DNA of 38,913 bases from Actinomycetota bacterium. GTDB lineage: Bacteria > Actinomycetota > CADDZG01 > WHSQ01. The notes beneath the pieces are model-generated. The model ran no database searches and was not told where the DNA came from. It saw only the letters and a list, made by a program, of their open reading frames with translations. Each line of letters begins with the position of its first letter. Position 1 is the first letter of the stretch. The translations under genes were made by a program, and so were the position numbers. The stretch covers positions 1 through 38,913 of the forward strand of contig WHSQ01000005.1 in the NCBI GenBank assembly GCA_009380005.1. The letters are read 5' to 3'. Shown piece by piece: positions 174 through 32,335 of this stretch.

Positions 174-2870
174 TTAGTGGCCCTGGGCGAAGGTCGGTTG
201 GGATCGGATTAGGCTAAGGAAGACCTCGACGATCTTGGGATCGAACTGGGTCCCGGCGCTCTGTTCGAGGCGGCGGCAGCCTTCCGATACGGGCATCCGC
301 TTGCGGTACGGCCGGTCCGTAGTCATCGCGTCGAAGGCGTCGCAGGTGAGGATGATGCGCGATTCGAGTGGTATCTCGTCGCCCTTCAAACCGTCGGGGT
401 ACCCGGTGCCGTCGTGATGCTCGTGACAATGTCTGACGATCGGCAGCACGTCCTCGAGGCGGCCGATCGGTCTGAGGATCTGCTCCCCCAGCTCGGGATG
501 CCTCTTCATGGCCTCGCGCTCCGCATCCGTGAGCGGCCCGGGCTTGAGCAGGATCTCGGATGAGATCCCGATCTTCCCGATGTCGTGGAACAGCGCACCC
601 AGCTCGAGACGTTTGAGGTCCTTGCCTTCGATACCGAGCGCGCGGCCCACGTCCAGACACATATCCGTGATCGAGCGAGCGTGGTCCGACGTGTATTCAT
701 CCTTCGCCTCGAGGGCGTTGGCGAGCGCTTCGACCGTCGAATAGAAGGTCTGCTCCAGGCTCTCGTAACTGATGGCGCTGTCGATCGCGAGTTTGGCCTG
801 ATTGGCGATCCCGACCAGCAGACGTTTCTTCCGGTCCGCATGGCCGTTCACCGCCGTCGGCGCGGCCACCAGGATGCCGAAGCGCGTCTCCGACCGTATC
901 GGAGCGACCCAGAAGGTCCCCGAGATCGAGACATCTCGACCGAGTATCTGATTCACCTCGCCGGAGTTCAGGATCAAAGGACGATCCGCCGGCAACATCC
1001 CGTAGAGCCGATCGGTCGGCACGCGGATCGACGCCATCTGGAGCCGTTGCAATTCGTCGTAGCCCGTGAGCGCCTCGACTCTGAGGTGACCCGAATCCGG
1101 CTCTTCCAACCAGACCGAGACCGTCTCGCTCGCCATCGTCTTCGACGTCTCCTGGATGATGCTGTCGAGGACCTCCTCCAGGCTCACGGCCGAAGCCAGC
1201 TCACCACTGACGTCCAAGAGGGCGTTGGCGACGGCCGCGCTGTCCTTGGCATTCTCGGCCTCGAGTCGCTGTGCCTCGTACAGGCGCGCGTTCTCGAGAG
1301 CCACCGATGCTTGTCCCGCCAGGACTTCCATCAAACGGACGTCGTCTTCGTCGAACTGGGCGACCCCCAGCTTGGAGATGACGATCGCACCGATGACGCG
1401 GGTGCCGTAATTCAGGGGAACAGCGACCATCGACTCCTCGATGTCTTCGGTGCCGGGTACCTCGACGGCGAATTCGCACTCGAGTGCGTTCGGAACTAGA
1501 AGCGACCGACCCGTCTCGGCGGCGTGGCCCGTGATGCCTTCACCGACGCCGACCGCCAAGATCTCCGGCGTCTCACCGTCATACGCCGAGAGCTCACCTC
1601 GGAACGCGATGGGGATGAGCATGTCTTCCTCACGGAGGTAGACACGGCAGTTGTGATAGTCGATGAGGGTTCTCAGCTCGTTCGCTATCGTCATGCCGAT
1701 CTGACGCACTTCGTTGAGACGGTTCAGCTTCCCGGCGAGACTTCGGAGCATCTTGAGATGCGAGATAGAGCGACCGTCACGGAGACCCCCGGGCTGCGAT
1801 GGGTCGTTCGCTTCGACCAGCACGTCGTTGGTGAACATGACGACCTGGTCCTTGCCGCGGCCCTTCGCCGTCAACATGGCCGTGTCTGCACTGCCCAGGA
1901 GCTCGCGCGCGTTCATGCCGTGCTCTGCACTCGACGCGATGCCTACGGAGATCGTTATCCGGCCCGCGGGGGAGAAGTCCGTCGTGGCGATCTTCTCGAG
2001 GAACCGGCTCGCGAAACCCATCGCATCGGCACCGTCCGAAGATGGAAGGACGACGGCAAACTCCTCACCTCCGATCCGGCACGGGATATCGAATTCCCGC
2101 ACGTTCGAAGAAAGCACCTCTGCGACGGTGGTCAAGACCTGATCCCCGGCCGCGTGTCCGTATACATCGTTCACTCGCTTGAAGTCGTCGATGTCGATCA
2201 CCAGCAAGGTCAACGGCTCGCGGTTGCGGCTGGCTCGATTGAGCTCTGCTCGGAGACGCTCGTGGAAGTATCGGTGATTGAAGAGTCCCGTCAGGGGGTC
2301 GGTGTTGGCCTGGCGTTCGAGCGAGTCACGGATGCTGGCGTTGTCGAGCGCGAGGGCCGCTGCGTCCGCGAAGCGTTTGACGATGTCGAACTCCGCCTCC
2401 GTGAAGCCGGCATCGTGACCGAGCCGGTACACATTCAACGCGCCGGTGATCGTCCCGCGCGCTTTCAGCGGAACCGAGATGAGCGCTTCGGGCTCCATCG
2501 GGGTGCCGGGGATGACGGCCGTCCTGGGATCGGCGTGGGCTTCGTTCGCCAGCACGGGCTCGCCCCGCTCCACCGCCCAGCCGGTGAGTCCGGTGCCGAT
2601 GGGGAAGGGACCGTTCATGATCTCGTCGGCGTAGGTGTCCATGGCCAGCAGCGGAACGATCAAGCCGCGGCCCCGGTCCACCTCGTAGACGGTGAGGGAG
2701 TCGTACGGGATCAGTTTCTTCAAGGTCGCAGCGACGCGATGCAGGAGCGCGTCGCTGCTCTGCTCCGATAGGAGCTCGTGGAAGATGTCCGCGAGATGTC
2801 GCAGATACTCGACCCGGCTCTCCAGATCCGAGACGTAGTCGCCCGCAACTAATGTTTGCTCAGGTGCCAC
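174..2870 (-). CDS. GAF-GGDEF-GAF-GAF-HD-GYP cyclic-di-GMP synthase/phosphodiesterase
   Basis: A soluble 898-residue multidomain signalling protein. Order: GAF (about 30-185), GGDEF (about 190-350), GAF (about 380-530), GAF-like (about 545-700), HD-GYP (about 705-890). The active-site loop reads GGEEF (267-271), preceded by an RxxD inhibitory site (R258 to D261, five residues before GGEEF), so the cyclase looks active and product-inhibited. The HD-GYP domain keeps HD (H762, D763) and GYP (823-825), consistent with cyclic-di-GMP hydrolysis. Known family chemistry predicts both synthesis and breakdown, with GAF domains as sensors; the net direction cannot be read from sequence. The GTG start at 2870 follows a gggggagg ribosome binding site by 3-4 nt. 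Leucine 7 is a rare TTA codon. No transmembrane segment is visible. A cyclic-di-GMP-I riboswitch near 32.3 kb is a possible downstream reader. Confidence 0.93.
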   Translation of the reverse strand: MAPEQTLVAGDYVSDLESRVEYLRHLADIFHELLSEQSSDALLHRVAATLKKLIPYDSLTVYEVDRGRGLIVPLLAMDTYADEIMNGPFPIGTGLTGWAVERGEPVLANEAHADPRTAVIPGTPMEPEALISVPLKARGTITGALNVYRLGHDAGFTEAEFDIVKRFADAAALALDNASIRDSLERQANTDPLTGLFNHRYFHERLRAELNRASRNREPLTLLVIDIDDFKRVNDVYGHAAGDQVLTTVAEVLSSNVREFDIPCRIGGEEFAVVLPSSDGADAMGFASRFLEKIATTDFSPAGRITISVGIASSAEHGMNARELLGSADTAMLTAKGRGKDQVVMFTNDVLVEANDPSQPGGLRDGRSISHLKMLRSLAGKLNRLNEVRQIGMTIANELRTLIDYHNCRVYLREEDMLIPIAFRGELSAYDGETPEILAVGVGEGITGHAAETGRSLLVPNALECEFAVEVPGTEDIEESMVAVPLNYGTRVIGAIVISKLGVAQFDEDDVRLMEVLAGQASVALENARLYEAQRLEAENAKDSAAVANALLDVSGELASAVSLEEVLDSIIQETSKTMASETVSVWLEEPDSGHLRVEALTGYDELQRLQMASIRVPTDRLYGMLPADRPLILNSGEVNQILGRDVSISGTFWVAPIRSETRFGILVAAPTAVNGHADRKKRLLVGIANQAKLAIDSAISYESLEQTFYSTVEALANALEAKDEYTSDHARSITDMCLDVGRALGIEGKDLKRLELGALFHDIGKIGISSEILLKPGPLTDAEREAMKRHPELGEQILRPIGRLEDVLPIVRHCHEHHDGTGYPDGLKGDEIPLESRIILTCDAFDAMTTDRPYRKRMPVSEGCRRLEQSAGTQFDPKIVEVFLSLIRSQPTFAQGH

Positions 2871-16158: not shown

Positions 16159-16398
16159 TCAAGGCTTTCTCTCGCGTTGGTCTTGGGCACGAACCTCATG
16201 GACCGCTTTGGATGCGATATCGATAGCCTCTTCGTCCGAGAGCCGGGCCTTGGCTCTGATCCGCTCGATGATGCCAAGCCCCTCTCTGAGAGCGGCCTCC
16301 AGAACCTCCGACTGGCTCTTGTTAGAGCGAGCGGCGCGGATCCTCACTTGTCGCATGAGACTCTCGTCGATCGAGAGCGTCGTCTTCACCCTTGCCAT
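16159..16398 (-). CDS. Ribbon-helix-helix antitoxin
   Basis: A 79-residue protein. The first 45 residues form a ribbon-helix-helix DNA-binding domain (VKTTLSIDESLMRQVRIRA, then NKSQSEVLEAALREGL), and the charged C-terminal helix would wrap the toxin. It sits directly upstream of the PIN frame, the standard order for antitoxin and toxin, and would repress its own operon. The frame is open to 16530, but similarity starts at the ATG at 16398. The start codon falls at the end of three 8-bp tandem repeats, and an imperfect palindrome ccctatatcggg at 16419-16430 may be the operator. Confidence 0.85.
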   Translation of the reverse strand: MARVKTTLSIDESLMRQVRIRAARSNKSQSEVLEAALREGLGIIERIRAKARLSDEEAIDIASKAVHEVRAQDQRERKP

Positions 16399-16414
16399 CC
16401 TGCCATCTTGCCAT
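16391..16414. repeat. Three tandem 8-bp repeats at the antitoxin start
   Basis: On the plus strand the units are cttgccat, cctgccat and cttgccat. On the minus strand this gives three ATG codons spaced 8 nt apart, in three different frames; only the one at 16398 opens the antitoxin. A change in repeat number would shift which ATG is used, or could alter operator binding. Confidence 0.7.
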
Positions 16415-16418
16415 ACTT

Positions 16419-16430
16419 CCCTATATCGGG
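16419..16430. promoter_or_regulatory. Imperfect palindrome, possible antitoxin operator
   Basis: ccctatatcggg is a 12-bp palindrome with one mismatched pair, located about 20 bp upstream of the RHH antitoxin start. RHH repressors bind short symmetric sites in this position. Assignment is by position only. Confidence 0.3.
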
Positions 16431-16548
16431 TAAGAGGGCTGCCTAGCTTTCCGGCATCGGGCTGCGGCGAGGCCCCAGGAGTGTCGACGAGCAGGTGATC
16501 GATACAGACAGGAGTCGCGCATCTCCGCATCGAACCGGGCTAGGTCGG

Positions 16549-16572
16549 TGCCCCCGATGGTGCCCCCGATGG
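16549..16572. repeat. 12-bp direct repeat duplicating the tRNA 3' end
   Basis: tgcccccgatgg occurs twice in tandem (16549-16560 and 16561-16572). The second copy is the 3' acceptor strand plus discriminator of the tRNA; the first copy supplies the encoded CCA and repeats the acceptor strand. Duplications of tRNA 3' ends are left by site-specific integration or by replication slippage. I see no integrase in the window. Confidence 0.75.
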
Positions 16573-16633
16573 GATTCGAACCCACACTGAAGGCCTTTTA
16601 AGGGCCGCCTCTCTGCCGTTGGAGTACGGGGGC
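16558..16633 (-). tRNA. tRNA with UAA anticodon (Leu by codon), class I fold
   Basis: A complete cloverleaf is visible on the minus strand: 7-bp acceptor GCCCCCG/CGGGGGC, a D stem of three pairs (CTC/GAG) with GG in the loop, an anticodon stem of four pairs plus one mismatch, loop CTTAAAA, a 5-nt variable loop, T arm GTGGG-TTCGAAT-CCCAT, discriminator A and encoded CCA. The seven-base loop gives anticodon UAA (16600-16598), which reads UUA, leucine. Bacterial leucine tRNAs have a long variable arm; this one does not, although its 3-bp D stem, A14 and A73 are leucine-like. It lies just after the SCO1664-family gene on the same strand and may be in its transcript. The amino acid charged is uncertain. 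Confidence 0.8.
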
Positions 16634-16649
16634 GATAGAAGGATACGGG

Positions 16650-17357
16650 TCAGACGAGGGGCCATGGCAGAGGGTAGTTGACCTCGGGTTGCGGATAGGT
16701 GCCCTTGCGCAGCAATCGATGGACACGGCGCGCTACGGCATCGGCCTCGGCCGCAGACAGCAACCCGGCCAGCTCGCGATAGGACTCGTTCTCCTGGGAC
16801 AGGGCATCCCGCAACCGTTCCAGTAGCATCCTGACGCCCGCCGGCAGCGGCTCCTCTGCGAACGACCAGATGACCGTTCGTAGCTTGGGTTCGACGTGGA
16901 ACGTCACGCCGTGGTCCACCGCCCAGAGCTTGCCGCCGGCGTCCTCGAGGACGTGCCCTGCCTTGCGATCGGCGTTGTTGACGACGACGTCGAACGCCGC
17001 CAGTACACGGAAGTCGTCGGCACGCTCGGTCTCGAGCGCGAAGTAATGCCGCTCCGGGTCGTGTTCCACGAACAGCTGCAGCGATCCCGGCCCCAGCGGA
17101 GCATCGTGGCGCAGCACCGTCGGCGGTACGAGATCGAAGCCACCGATATCGCTCACCAGATAGGCGGCAACCTCGCGGTTCGCGAGCGTGCCGTGTTGGA
17201 AATCCCACAACGGCCGCTCGCCGCGGCGTGGCTTGTACACCGCGAGCACTCCGTCTTCCTCCCCCACCCGCGCCAGGAACGTGTAGTTGGAGGCGTAGGG
17301 CAAGACGCCGAGGACGTCGATGGGGCTCGAGCTGAGGCGCTCGATGGTCTCGGTCAT
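16650..17357 (-). CDS. SCO1664-family kinase-like protein
   Basis: A 235-residue protein of the SCO1664 family, found in actinobacteria next to DUF3090 and a histidine phosphatase. Its core resembles phosphatidylinositol 3/4-kinase-like and HipA-like folds: VYKPRRGERPLWDF near the N-terminus as an ATP-lysine segment, NADRKAGHVL as the catalytic loop and WAVDHGVTFH as the metal site. Enzymatic activity has not been shown to my knowledge. In many actinobacteria this cluster also contains mshC of mycothiol synthesis; no mshC is visible here. Start ATG at 17357 is chosen; a GTG at 17366 overlapping the DUF3090 stop is an alternative. The UAA tRNA follows 16 bp downstream. Confidence 0.88.
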   Translation of the reverse strand: MTETIERLSSSPIDVLGVLPYASNYTFLARVGEEDGVLAVYKPRRGERPLWDFQHGTLANREVAAYLVSDIGGFDLVPPTVLRHDAPLGPGSLQLFVEHDPERHYFALETERADDFRVLAAFDVVVNNADRKAGHVLEDAGGKLWAVDHGVTFHVEPKLRTVIWSFAEEPLPAGVRMLLERLRDALSQENESYRELAGLLSAAEADAVARRVHRLLRKGTYPQPEVNYPLPWPLV

Positions 17358-17365
17358 TGAGTTCA

Positions 17366-17911
17366 CTACGCCATGACGTGATGCCCGTTCGACGCGGGAC
17401 ACTGGTGGCCAGAAGGGCTCATCGGCAAACCGCACAGTGGACAGATCGGTCTGCCCTCCTCGACGACCGCCAAAGCATGCAGGACGAAGGCGCGCACCTG
17501 GTCACGCCGCAGCAGGAAACGGACGCCGGCGCTCTCGGGATCGAGCTCTGCCTCTTCCTCCTCTTCCTCGCCTTCGACCTCCTCGCCCGCCGGCTGGGCG
17601 AACACCACGACGCGATCGTTCTCATCGTCGAACGCGAGCCCCATCGTGCCGATCCGCATGTCGGCTGCTTCGGGAGGCTCGAGGGTCAGGCTCGGGTCCC
17701 GCTCCGGGCTCGCGCTCTTGATCGTGTCCTCGGGATCGATCATCAGCAAGAGCTCGCGCAGCTTCTCGGCCAGCAGCGACACCTGCTGCTTCTCGACCCG
17801 GAACGATCGAGCTCCCGTCTCGCCCCGAGCCTGGACGTAGAAGGTACGCCGGCCGGGCTCGCCTTCGTAGTCCGCCGTGAAGGTCTCCGGAACGATCTCC
17901 ATGTCGCTCAT
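17366..17911 (-). CDS. DUF3090 family protein with C-terminal zinc-ribbon motif
   Basis: A 181-residue DUF3090 (SCO1664-cluster) protein of unknown function. The family core runs from PETFTADYEGEPG and TFYVQARG to RFLLRRDQVRAFVLHALAVVEEGRP. A long glutamate run lies in the middle (EGEEEEEEAELD), and the C-terminus carries CPLCG and a later HQCP, a treble-clef or zinc-ribbon-like metal site. The start ATG (17911) overlaps the phosphatase stop as ATGA, so translation is coupled. The protein is cytoplasmic by appearance. Confidence 0.9.
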   Translation of the reverse strand: MSDMEIVPETFTADYEGEPGRRTFYVQARGETGARSFRVEKQQVSLLAEKLRELLLMIDPEDTIKSASPERDPSLTLEPPEAADMRIGTMGLAFDDENDRVVVFAQPAGEEVEGEEEEEEAELDPESAGVRFLLRRDQVRAFVLHALAVVEEGRPICPLCGLPMSPSGHQCPASNGHHVMA

Positions 17912-20476: not shown

Positions 20477-21409
20477 CTACTCCGCCGTCTGGTCCAAGCT
20501 TTGCCCGATCAGCTCGAGGACGATGCCGTCGAGGATGTCCTTCTCCGAAACGGTGACCTCCGGCAGGTCGAAGGCGTCCATCACCACGAGCAGGATCTCG
20601 GCGCCGGCCACGATGACGTCGACACGACCGGGATCGAGGCCCCGGACGCGCTTGCGCTTCTCGAACGGCAACGACTCGAGACGCTTCGCGAGCAGGCGCA
20701 CATCGCCGTGGGTGAGCACGGCATGATGAGTGACGTCCGGGTCGTAGACGGGAACGCCGGCCTTCAGAGTCGCCAGTTGTGTCACGGTTCCGGCCACGCC
20801 GACGAGACGGGACCCGCGTGGAACGTCGAGATGCTCCCTGACCCCCCGTAACGTCTTTCGAACGTCGTCGCGCAACGCGTCGAGCTCCGCCGGTGCCGGA
20901 GGATCGGACGCCAGGTGCTTCTCGAACAGCCGAACGCAGCCCATATCCAGCGACACGAGCCGTTCGGGCTCCATGCCGCCGACGATCAGCTCGGTGGATC
21001 CACCTCCGATATCGACGACGACGACCGGCTCACCCGGCGGGAGGTCCGAGATCACGCCCGAGAACGTCGCCCGAGCTTCGAGATCACCGGTGAGGACGTG
21101 GGGTTCGGCACCGGTCAGGCGTCGTACACCCTCGAAGAAGAGTCGTCTGTTGCGAGCGTCTCGCACCGCCGACGTACCCGTGACCTTCAAGCGTTCCACA
21201 CCGTACTCACCGCACATGGCGGCGTACTCCGCGATCGTCGAGAAGGTCCGTTGCAGGGCCTCGTCCGACAATGCCCGCGTCCGGTCGACGCCCTCACCGA
21301 GACGGGTGATCGTCATTCGACGGTCGATGGGACGGAAGCCGTTACCGACGGCTTCGGCAACCAGCAGCCGGGTGGAGTTCGTCCCGACATCTATCGCGGC
21401 GACCCTCAT
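20477..21409 (-). CDS. Ppx/GppA exopolyphosphatase family protein
   Basis: A 310-residue exopolyphosphatase/guanosine pentaphosphatase-family enzyme of the short two-domain type seen in actinobacteria (Ppx1-like). The ASKHA-fold phosphate loops are DVGTNSTRLLV near the start and VVDIGGGSTELIVG in the middle; VAGTVTQLA and KDILDGIVLELI also fit. It should hydrolyse polyphosphate or nucleotide polyphosphate in the cytoplasm. The ATG at 21409 overlaps the DUF501 stop (ATGA), so it is coupled to that gene; DUF501-ppx pairing next to ftsB and eno is standard in the phylum. Confidence 0.92.
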   Translation of the reverse strand: MRVAAIDVGTNSTRLLVAEAVGNGFRPIDRRMTITRLGEGVDRTRALSDEALQRTFSTIAEYAAMCGEYGVERLKVTGTSAVRDARNRRLFFEGVRRLTGAEPHVLTGDLEARATFSGVISDLPPGEPVVVVDIGGGSTELIVGGMEPERLVSLDMGCVRLFEKHLASDPPAPAELDALRDDVRKTLRGVREHLDVPRGSRLVGVAGTVTQLATLKAGVPVYDPDVTHHAVLTHGDVRLLAKRLESLPFEKRKRVRGLDPGRVDVIVAGAEILLVVMDAFDLPEVTVSEKDILDGIVLELIGQSLDQTAE

Positions 21410-21900
21410 CCCGGTTCCACGACCCGGAAACACGGCTCCCGGCAGTCCGGGTACCCGGCGGCGGCGAGGGTCAGGGCGCCGATGGGATTGGGAGGATCGG
21501 CGAGCTCGTGGGCCAAGTGCGCGTGGAGGCATTTCACGCGGTCGGGGCCGCCGCCCGGTGGGCCCCCTCCACCCTGGACCGGCTCGTGCGCGTCGCGACG
21601 CGCCCGGTAGCGCTCTATCGCTCGAGCCAGCCGCGCCCTGAGGTTGCCCTCAGCCTCAAGGCGCTCGGTCAGAGCCGCCATCCACCCGTCGCCCTCCAGG
21701 CGGCCGGCTCGCTTCGCGAGGACGGGGCACGTCAACCAGAAGAGGGTCGGGAACGGGGCTCCGTCCGGCGTCCGGGGGTAGCTCTCGATCGCCATCGGTA
21801 CGCCGAGGTGGCACCGGCGAACCACCGCCCAGTCGCCGCGAAGCTCCCGACCGAGCTGCGCTTCGACCACGAGACGGTCCTCGTCGGAGTGCGTGAGCAT
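21406..21900 (-). CDS. DUF501 domain-containing protein
   Basis: A 164-residue DUF501 protein, widespread in actinobacteria between septum initiator and ppx genes. The family core is RCHLGVPMAIESYPRT and FPTLFWLTCPVLAKR, ending in CLHAHLAHELADPPNPIG with conserved histidines and cysteines that suggest metal binding. Function is unknown. The start used is ATG at 21900, which lies 6 nt after TAGGCT; a GTG at 21906 directly after that box is the other possibility. A proline- and glycine-rich linker lies before the final motif. Confidence 0.9.
   Translation of the reverse strand: MLTHSDEDRLVVEAQLGRELRGDWAVVRRCHLGVPMAIESYPRTPDGAPFPTLFWLTCPVLAKRAGRLEGDGWMAALTERLEAEGNLRARLARAIERYRARRDAHEPVQGGGGPPGGGPDRVKCLHAHLAHELADPPNPIGALTLAAAGYPDCREPCFRVVEPG

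Positions 21901-22364: not shown

Positions 22365-22365
<1 letters not shown>
21943..22365 (-). CDS. Septum formation initiator protein (FtsB/DivIC family)
   Basis: A 140-residue bitopic membrane protein: short basic cytoplasmic start, one transmembrane helix (about 19-39), an extracellular coiled coil (ARQLLAQRDRINGMSSELEE onward, to about 75) and the FtsB/DivIC signature around DPDYIEQEAREVGLVRPGE. A basic, proline-rich tail ends the protein. In the divisome this family links FtsL and FtsQ and triggers septal wall synthesis. The ATG at 22365 shares its first base with the TGA of eno (TGATG), so translation is coupled to enolase, an arrangement common in actinobacteria. Confidence 0.9.
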
Positions 22366-23651
<1,286 letters not shown>

Positions 23652-32255: not shown

Positions 32256-32335
32256 CCAATTCGACAGCTGGGCGGCCCCTCTGGGGGCCCCTGGCTTTGC
32301 GTCCCTGCGTTGCCGCAGGTTTGCCTTTTCGTTGG
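32256..32335 (-). ncRNA. Cyclic-di-GMP-I (GEMM-I) riboswitch
   Basis: Read on the minus strand, the leader has the conserved aptamer core GGCAAACC, a hairpin closed by a GCAA tetraloop (tgcg-GCAA-cgca), then GGGACGCAAAGCC, and a second GC-rich hairpin (GGGGCC...GGCC). The order and bases match the GEMM-I aptamer, whose ligand is cyclic-di-GMP. Flanking CCAA (32335-32332) and CGA can pair with TTGG (32259-32256) and TCG to form the closing stem. The TTGG overlaps the GGAGGG ribosome binding site (32257-32252) of the CAP gene, so ligand binding probably controls translation. I see no intrinsic terminator between aptamer and start codon. Confidence 0.88.

Follow-up and report, generated by a model that had tools for sequence, protein, structure and literature searches.

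A predicted tRNA-Leu(UAA) without a long variable arm, and its short-armed relatives in the Actinomycetota

The window, that is the whole stretch of DNA analysed here, comprises 38,913 nt of contig WHSQ01000005.1 from an Actinomycetota bacterium. The only tRNA found in it by ARAGORN is a tRNA-Leu(taa) at 16558–16633 on the minus strand, 76 nt long with an encoded CCA end, and Rfam model RF00005 matches 16561–16633 on the same strand with 51.1 bits (gathering threshold 29, E-value 3e-8). Along the minus strand the gene order is mazG, eno, ppx, an acetate-CoA-ligase-like gene, a MSMEG_4193-type phosphatase gene, a DUF3090 gene, a SCO1664-family gene and then the tRNA. The SCO1664-family gene (16650–17435, minus strand; TIGR03843, 264 bits) lies directly upstream of the tRNA. 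The exopolyphosphatase gene ppx (20477–21532, minus; PF02541, 204 bits) is a neighbour of tRNA-Leu(UAA) in many actinobacteria, and the enolase gene eno (22365–23648, minus; TIGR01060, 656.6 bits) belongs to the same conserved block. The identified neighbours are housekeeping or core genes. By the 3' end of the tRNA there is a small minus-strand ORF with a CopG-type ribbon-helix-helix domain (16159–16530), possibly an antitoxin or regulator; apart from this ORF no mobile-looking gene was found near the tRNA, and no phage gene is among the identified neighbours. Cargo of a mobile element was therefore rejected as an explanation for the copy in the window. The window also has a c-di-GMP-I riboswitch aptamer at 32260–32335 on the minus strand (62.2 bits).

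Written by its structural parts, the tRNA reads 5'-GCCCCCG UA CUCC AACGGCAG AGAG G CGGCC CUUAAAA GGCCU UCAGU GUGGG UUCGAAU CCCAU CGGGGGC A CCA-3'. The 5' side of the acceptor stem, GCCCCCG (16627–16633, minus), pairs in all seven positions with 16562–16568 and is conserved among the relatives described below; all five pairs of the T stem form, one of them a G-U at 49-65, and in the anticodon stem four pairs form beside a C27/U43 mismatch. The D arm (tRNA positions 10–26; 16608–16624, minus) has three pairs, a C13/A22 mismatch, A14 and A15, G18 and G19, and A20a. The anticodon UAA (16598–16600, minus, read from 16600 to 16598) stands within the loop CUUAAAA (16596–16602). In place of a long arm there is a variable loop of 5 nt, UCAGU (16586–16590, minus), with U48 as its last residue; the loop is likewise conserved among the relatives. 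Discriminator A73 is at 16561 and the CCA end at 16558–16560, both on the minus strand. The preliminary description had read a class I tRNA of canonical length with loop CTTAAAA, anticodon UAA, a 5-nt variable loop, a 3-bp D stem, A14 and A73, and all of this agrees with ARAGORN, Rfam and the sequence. The acceptor/T combination is 7/5, not the non-canonical 8-4 or 9-3 of allo-tRNAs; the variable region is shorter than the at least 10 nt of class II tRNAs, and the core has A9, C12 and C13 where the class II set compiled here has G9, G12 and G13. Its covariance score together with homologues in other genomes excludes a chance origin.

A bacterial tRNA with a leucine anticodon and a class I body could be a leucine tRNA without its arm, a tRNA from another family with a changed anticodon, or a tRNA that recodes UUA, and these were the options offered in the preliminary description. 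For leucylation in E. coli, A73, A15-U48, G18G19 and A20a are essential and the long arm is dispensable, according to a 2023 review of identity elements, which also records that U8:A14 matters in Aquifex tRNA-Leu (PMC9976931). The window tRNA carries A73, A15:U48, U8:A14, G18G19 and A20a, in addition to the leucine-codon anticodon UAA. As a control, positions 14-15, 48 and 73 were listed for every tRNA recovered from the same genome: A15, U48 and A73 occur together only in the five class II leucine tRNAs and in the window tRNA, the near misses being tRNA-Asn and tRNA-Gln, both with G73. A covariance model trained exclusively on class II tRNA-Leu (R1) gave the family of the window tRNA 57–69 bits, against at most about 55 bits for other class I tRNAs among the matches listed, which places the family just below the class II leucine tRNAs, amid the serine tRNAs and above the other class I tRNAs. 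One full-length LeuRS is found above the cut-off in this genome.

The tRNA is not a one-off. The preliminary description had proposed looking for it in relatives, and there it is widespread. A blastn search of 61 relative genomes returned numerous full-length homologues, every one of them short-armed and with UAA or CAA as its anticodon, and an exact pattern scan of GTDB genomes found at least 120 loci. Among the matches listed, nearly all are in Actinomycetota (Streptomyces, Mycobacterium, Corynebacterium, Bifidobacterium, Nocardia, Micrococcales and others), and a few are assigned to Deltaproteobacteria, Myxococcales, Spartobacteria, Spirochaetales, Chthonomonas and Neomegalonema. In a sample of the phylum, 104 of 396 genomes match the family pattern with at most two mismatches, a figure that undercounts members with other T stems and that may, through its loosest matches, count a few tRNAs of other kinds. 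The compiled family set has 111 distinct short-armed sequences, 59 with UAA and 52 with CAA. A73 and a 5-nt variable loop are each present in 110 of the 111; every base pair of the acceptor, T and D (10-12/23-25) stems is intact in 110 of 110 sequences, many positions being occupied by several kinds of pair, the anticodon stem covaries across these 110, and the C13/A22 mismatch is kept in 110 of 110. Most members were found with a search pattern that included U48, which in part selects for the conservation of this residue in the family but leaves the comparison within the own genome unaffected. Judged by conservation and covariation, the family is a discrete short-armed tRNA-Leu lineage and the window tRNA neither a pseudogene nor an isolated case. 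As a further observation, Pseudonocardia endophytica has two class I tRNA-Leu copies.

A class II tRNA-Leu(UAA) is present in the genome of the window as well (contig C144, 41313–41397). Its loop is CCUAAAC and hence has C33, and it adjoins a phage-type integrase gene (1847–2866, minus strand, of the extracted locus L194); U33 is near-universal in tRNAs. This copy is probably associated with an element. The tRNA inventory of this genome combines Rfam with model searches; tRNA-Leu(CAA) was not recovered in it, and tRNA-Glu, tRNA-His and several tRNA-Ser are likewise missing from the Rfam list. As the assembly, in 639 contigs, is incomplete for tRNAs, the pattern of anticodon slots cannot be read cleanly in this genome.

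The other inventories show a single tRNA for each UAA and each CAA slot, and in nearly all of these genomes the class I tRNA is the sole occupant of one of the two slots or of both. The CAG, UAG and GAG tRNAs of M. interjectum and of two Corynebacterium species are class II, their UAA and CAA tRNAs class I. S. lincolnensis and Alloscardovia combine a class II UAA tRNA with a class I CAA tRNA, which in S. lincolnensis is the only CAA. In Kocuria, Nocardia carnea, Arcanobacterium, a genome of the Coriobacteriia and the relatives G003, G005 and G020, CAA is class II and class I is the only UAA; in G006, which belongs to the same taxonomic family as the own genome and lacks a class I gene, both slots are class II. 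Genomes assigned to Deltaproteobacteria, Spartobacteria and Spirochaetales each have four class II tRNA-Leu, which serve the other leucine codons, plus the class I UAA, which in the latter two is the locus of the pattern scan; these non-actinobacterial copies may represent horizontal transfer or mis-binned contigs. The first look at these inventories scored 150 candidates per genome, so that a gene may have been missed in any one genome, but hardly in all of them. Six Streptomyces genomes are listed with one CAA gene each in a published table (PMC4932002), in line with class I CAA as the only UUG-specific tRNA there. Many genomes have no other tRNA that could read UUA, UUG or both, so that the class I tRNA must decode in these. 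Separately, G005 contains a shortened copy of 78 nt that resembles tRNA-Leu(CAG) and whose T arm is damaged (contig C18, 301737–301815), and no intact tRNA-Leu(CAG) was seen among the loci examined in that genome.

Three genomes in which the only UAA tRNA is class I were used to ask what TTA stands for, counting locally well-aligned positions. TTA faces leucine at 63% of these in C. parakroppenstedtii (33/52), at 55% in C. yonathiae (12/22) and at 57% in the Coriobacteriia genome (17/30). Other leucine codons reach 56–75% and ATT 11–12%, so that the values for TTA are in or near the range of the other leucine codons. The 17 genes of the window contain four TTA codons, of which one is informative: ppx residue 228, where 18 of 29 aligned residues are leucine. 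Recoding of UUA was rejected on the alignments from the three genomes and on the leucine identity elements, and the window tRNA would leave the genetic code unchanged.

Taken together, we assign a probability of roughly 0.9 to the reading that the window tRNA is a working elongator tRNA-Leu with a class I body. It would read UUA, and UUG by wobble, and be charged with leucine by the cell's only LeuRS. The lineage has kept the features that LeuRS needs, namely A73, A15:U48, G18G19, A20a and U8:A14, and its own core of A9, C12-G23, C13/A22 and a variable loop NNAGU stands in place of the G9, G12, G13 and long arm of class II. Where relatives have a class II tRNA-Leu, the lineage occupies the same chromosomal position and fills the same anticodon slot, be it UAA, CAA or both. 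While structure, conservation, identity elements, location, slot occupancy and the alignment of UUA with leucine in other genomes are shown by the analysis, we infer that the tRNA is expressed, charged with leucine and used on the ribosome. Among the options of the preliminary description, it is the leucine tRNA without its arm that is well supported, by the identity elements, by the location and T arm shared with class II tRNA-Leu(UAA) and by the UAA or CAA slots that it fills alone in other genomes.

An origin in another amino-acid family, in which a class I tRNA would have acquired the anticodon UAA by mutation and would insert another amino acid at UUA by recoding or mistranslation, agrees with the class I body and the class I core residue A9. 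However, the full leucine identity set is found in no non-leucine tRNA of the own genome, location and T stem are shared with class II tRNA-Leu(UAA), TTA aligns with leucine where class I is the only UAA tRNA, and an anticodon UAA or CAA is kept in more than 100 relatives; we regard this origin as very improbable. No more credible is a decayed tRNA, or the att-site remnant of an integrative element. tRNA genes are common integration sites, two Pseudonocardia genomes (P. alaniniphila, L092, and a MAG, L130) have copies of the 3' half of a class I tRNA-Leu without the 5' half, as left by integrating elements, and another UAA tRNA is present in the own genome. Against this stand the score of 51.1 bits, the formed stems, the encoded CCA, the conservation and covariation across the phylum and the neighbourhood, in which the genes identified are core genes and none is a phage gene. 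Of the two signs of decay named together in the preliminary description, a normal class II tRNA-Leu(UAA) elsewhere has a counterpart in the copy on C144, with its C33 and adjoining integrase gene, but a pseudogene-like score was not found. A role outside translation, as an amino-acid donor in cell-wall, lipid or natural-product synthesis, might be suggested by the unusual body and the additional UAA tRNA in the genome, but is the least probable of all, as the tRNA must decode wherever it alone can read UUA or UUG, and the neighbours are housekeeping genes.

The predicted tRNA-Leu resembles class II tRNA-Leu(UAA), for instance Streptomyces bldA, in its anticodon, A73, A14, A15:U48, G18G19, A20a and chromosomal location, in the 3-bp D stem with a 13/22 mismatch and in the T stem GUGGG, which about half of these class II tRNAs share; it differs in lacking the long variable arm and in A9, C12 and C13 versus G9, G12 and G13. 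A9 is found in 120 of 124 class I sequences versus G9 in 103 of 103 class II leucine tRNAs, and class I has C12C13 versus G12G13 or G12A13 in class II, with almost no intermediates. The T stem GUGGG occurs in 112 of 124 class I sequences, in 9 of 16 class II UAA and 9 of 19 class II CAA tRNAs, and in only one of 68 CUN-reading tRNA-Leu; with 18 of 35 UUR-reading class II against 1 of 68 CUN-reading genes, this stem ties class I to UUR-type genes. The location is shared, too. The position after the SCO1664-family gene is occupied by class I in the own genome, G003, G005, G010 and G013 and by class II tRNA-Leu(UAA) in G006, and ppx lies upstream of class II in five loci (L213, L217, L218, L223 and L231) and of class I in Nocardia, Corynebacterium, Coriobacteriia and others. 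A recent deletion of the arm in place, from a gene like that of G006, is not favoured because of the different core with almost no intermediates, which fits better with an old lineage replacing the class II gene. Most likely, a UUR-type tRNA-Leu would have been converted once, long ago, to a class I body whose core was rebuilt, and its descendants would then have taken over the loci of class II genes. About 75 nt are too few to resolve a tree, and we infer the replacement, its direction and horizontal transfer.

The long arm of tRNA-Leu is kept everywhere but in animal mitochondria, according to the 2023 review, and animal mitochondrial tRNA-Leu(UUR), which has no long arm either, has its identity in A73 and A14 (PMC9976931). 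The mitochondrial tRNA, however, is organellar, floppy and degenerate, whereas the window tRNA is a canonical, stable cloverleaf on a bacterial chromosome. A tRNA-Leu(TAG) with a short variable loop has been reported from a mycobacterial tRNA gene cluster (PMC6582537). It has a leucine anticodon and a short variable loop in common with the window tRNA, but by its published description is accessory and stands beside a normal isoacceptor, whereas the family described here is a core gene and often the only isoacceptor. Mycobacteriophages (Bigswole, Bonray and others) carry a tRNA-Leu that is 80–82% identical to the window tRNA over 74 nt; these copies are phage-borne and already annotated as 'tRNA-Leu' in the database. 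A further known arm-less tRNA with a leucine anticodon is close to tRNA-Met and perhaps silent, whereas the window tRNA is leucine-like throughout. In the part of the literature that we covered, no description of a short-armed tRNA-Leu lineage was found, and the widespread lineage is apparently undescribed.

In broader terms, we lean towards a single short-armed tRNA-Leu(UUR) lineage (A9, C13/A22, NNAGU) that arose once, spread in the Actinomycetota and into Deltaproteobacteria, Spartobacteria and Spirochaetales genomes and replaced class II slot by slot, in UAA, CAA or both. The textbook class II rule would then be wrong for much of the phylum, including Mycobacterium, Corynebacterium and Streptomyces. 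Both in reviews and in tRNA classifiers, a long variable arm counts as an invariant hallmark of bacterial tRNA-Leu. Laboratory experiments with E. coli found it unnecessary, and the lineage described here seems to do without it in nature. A chromosomal and often sole arm-less tRNA-Leu in major genera would be a natural experiment on recognition by LeuRS, and would bear on the isotype models used in annotation, on drug work on mycobacterial LeuRS, on toxins that sort tRNAs by their arm and on claims of UUA recoding.
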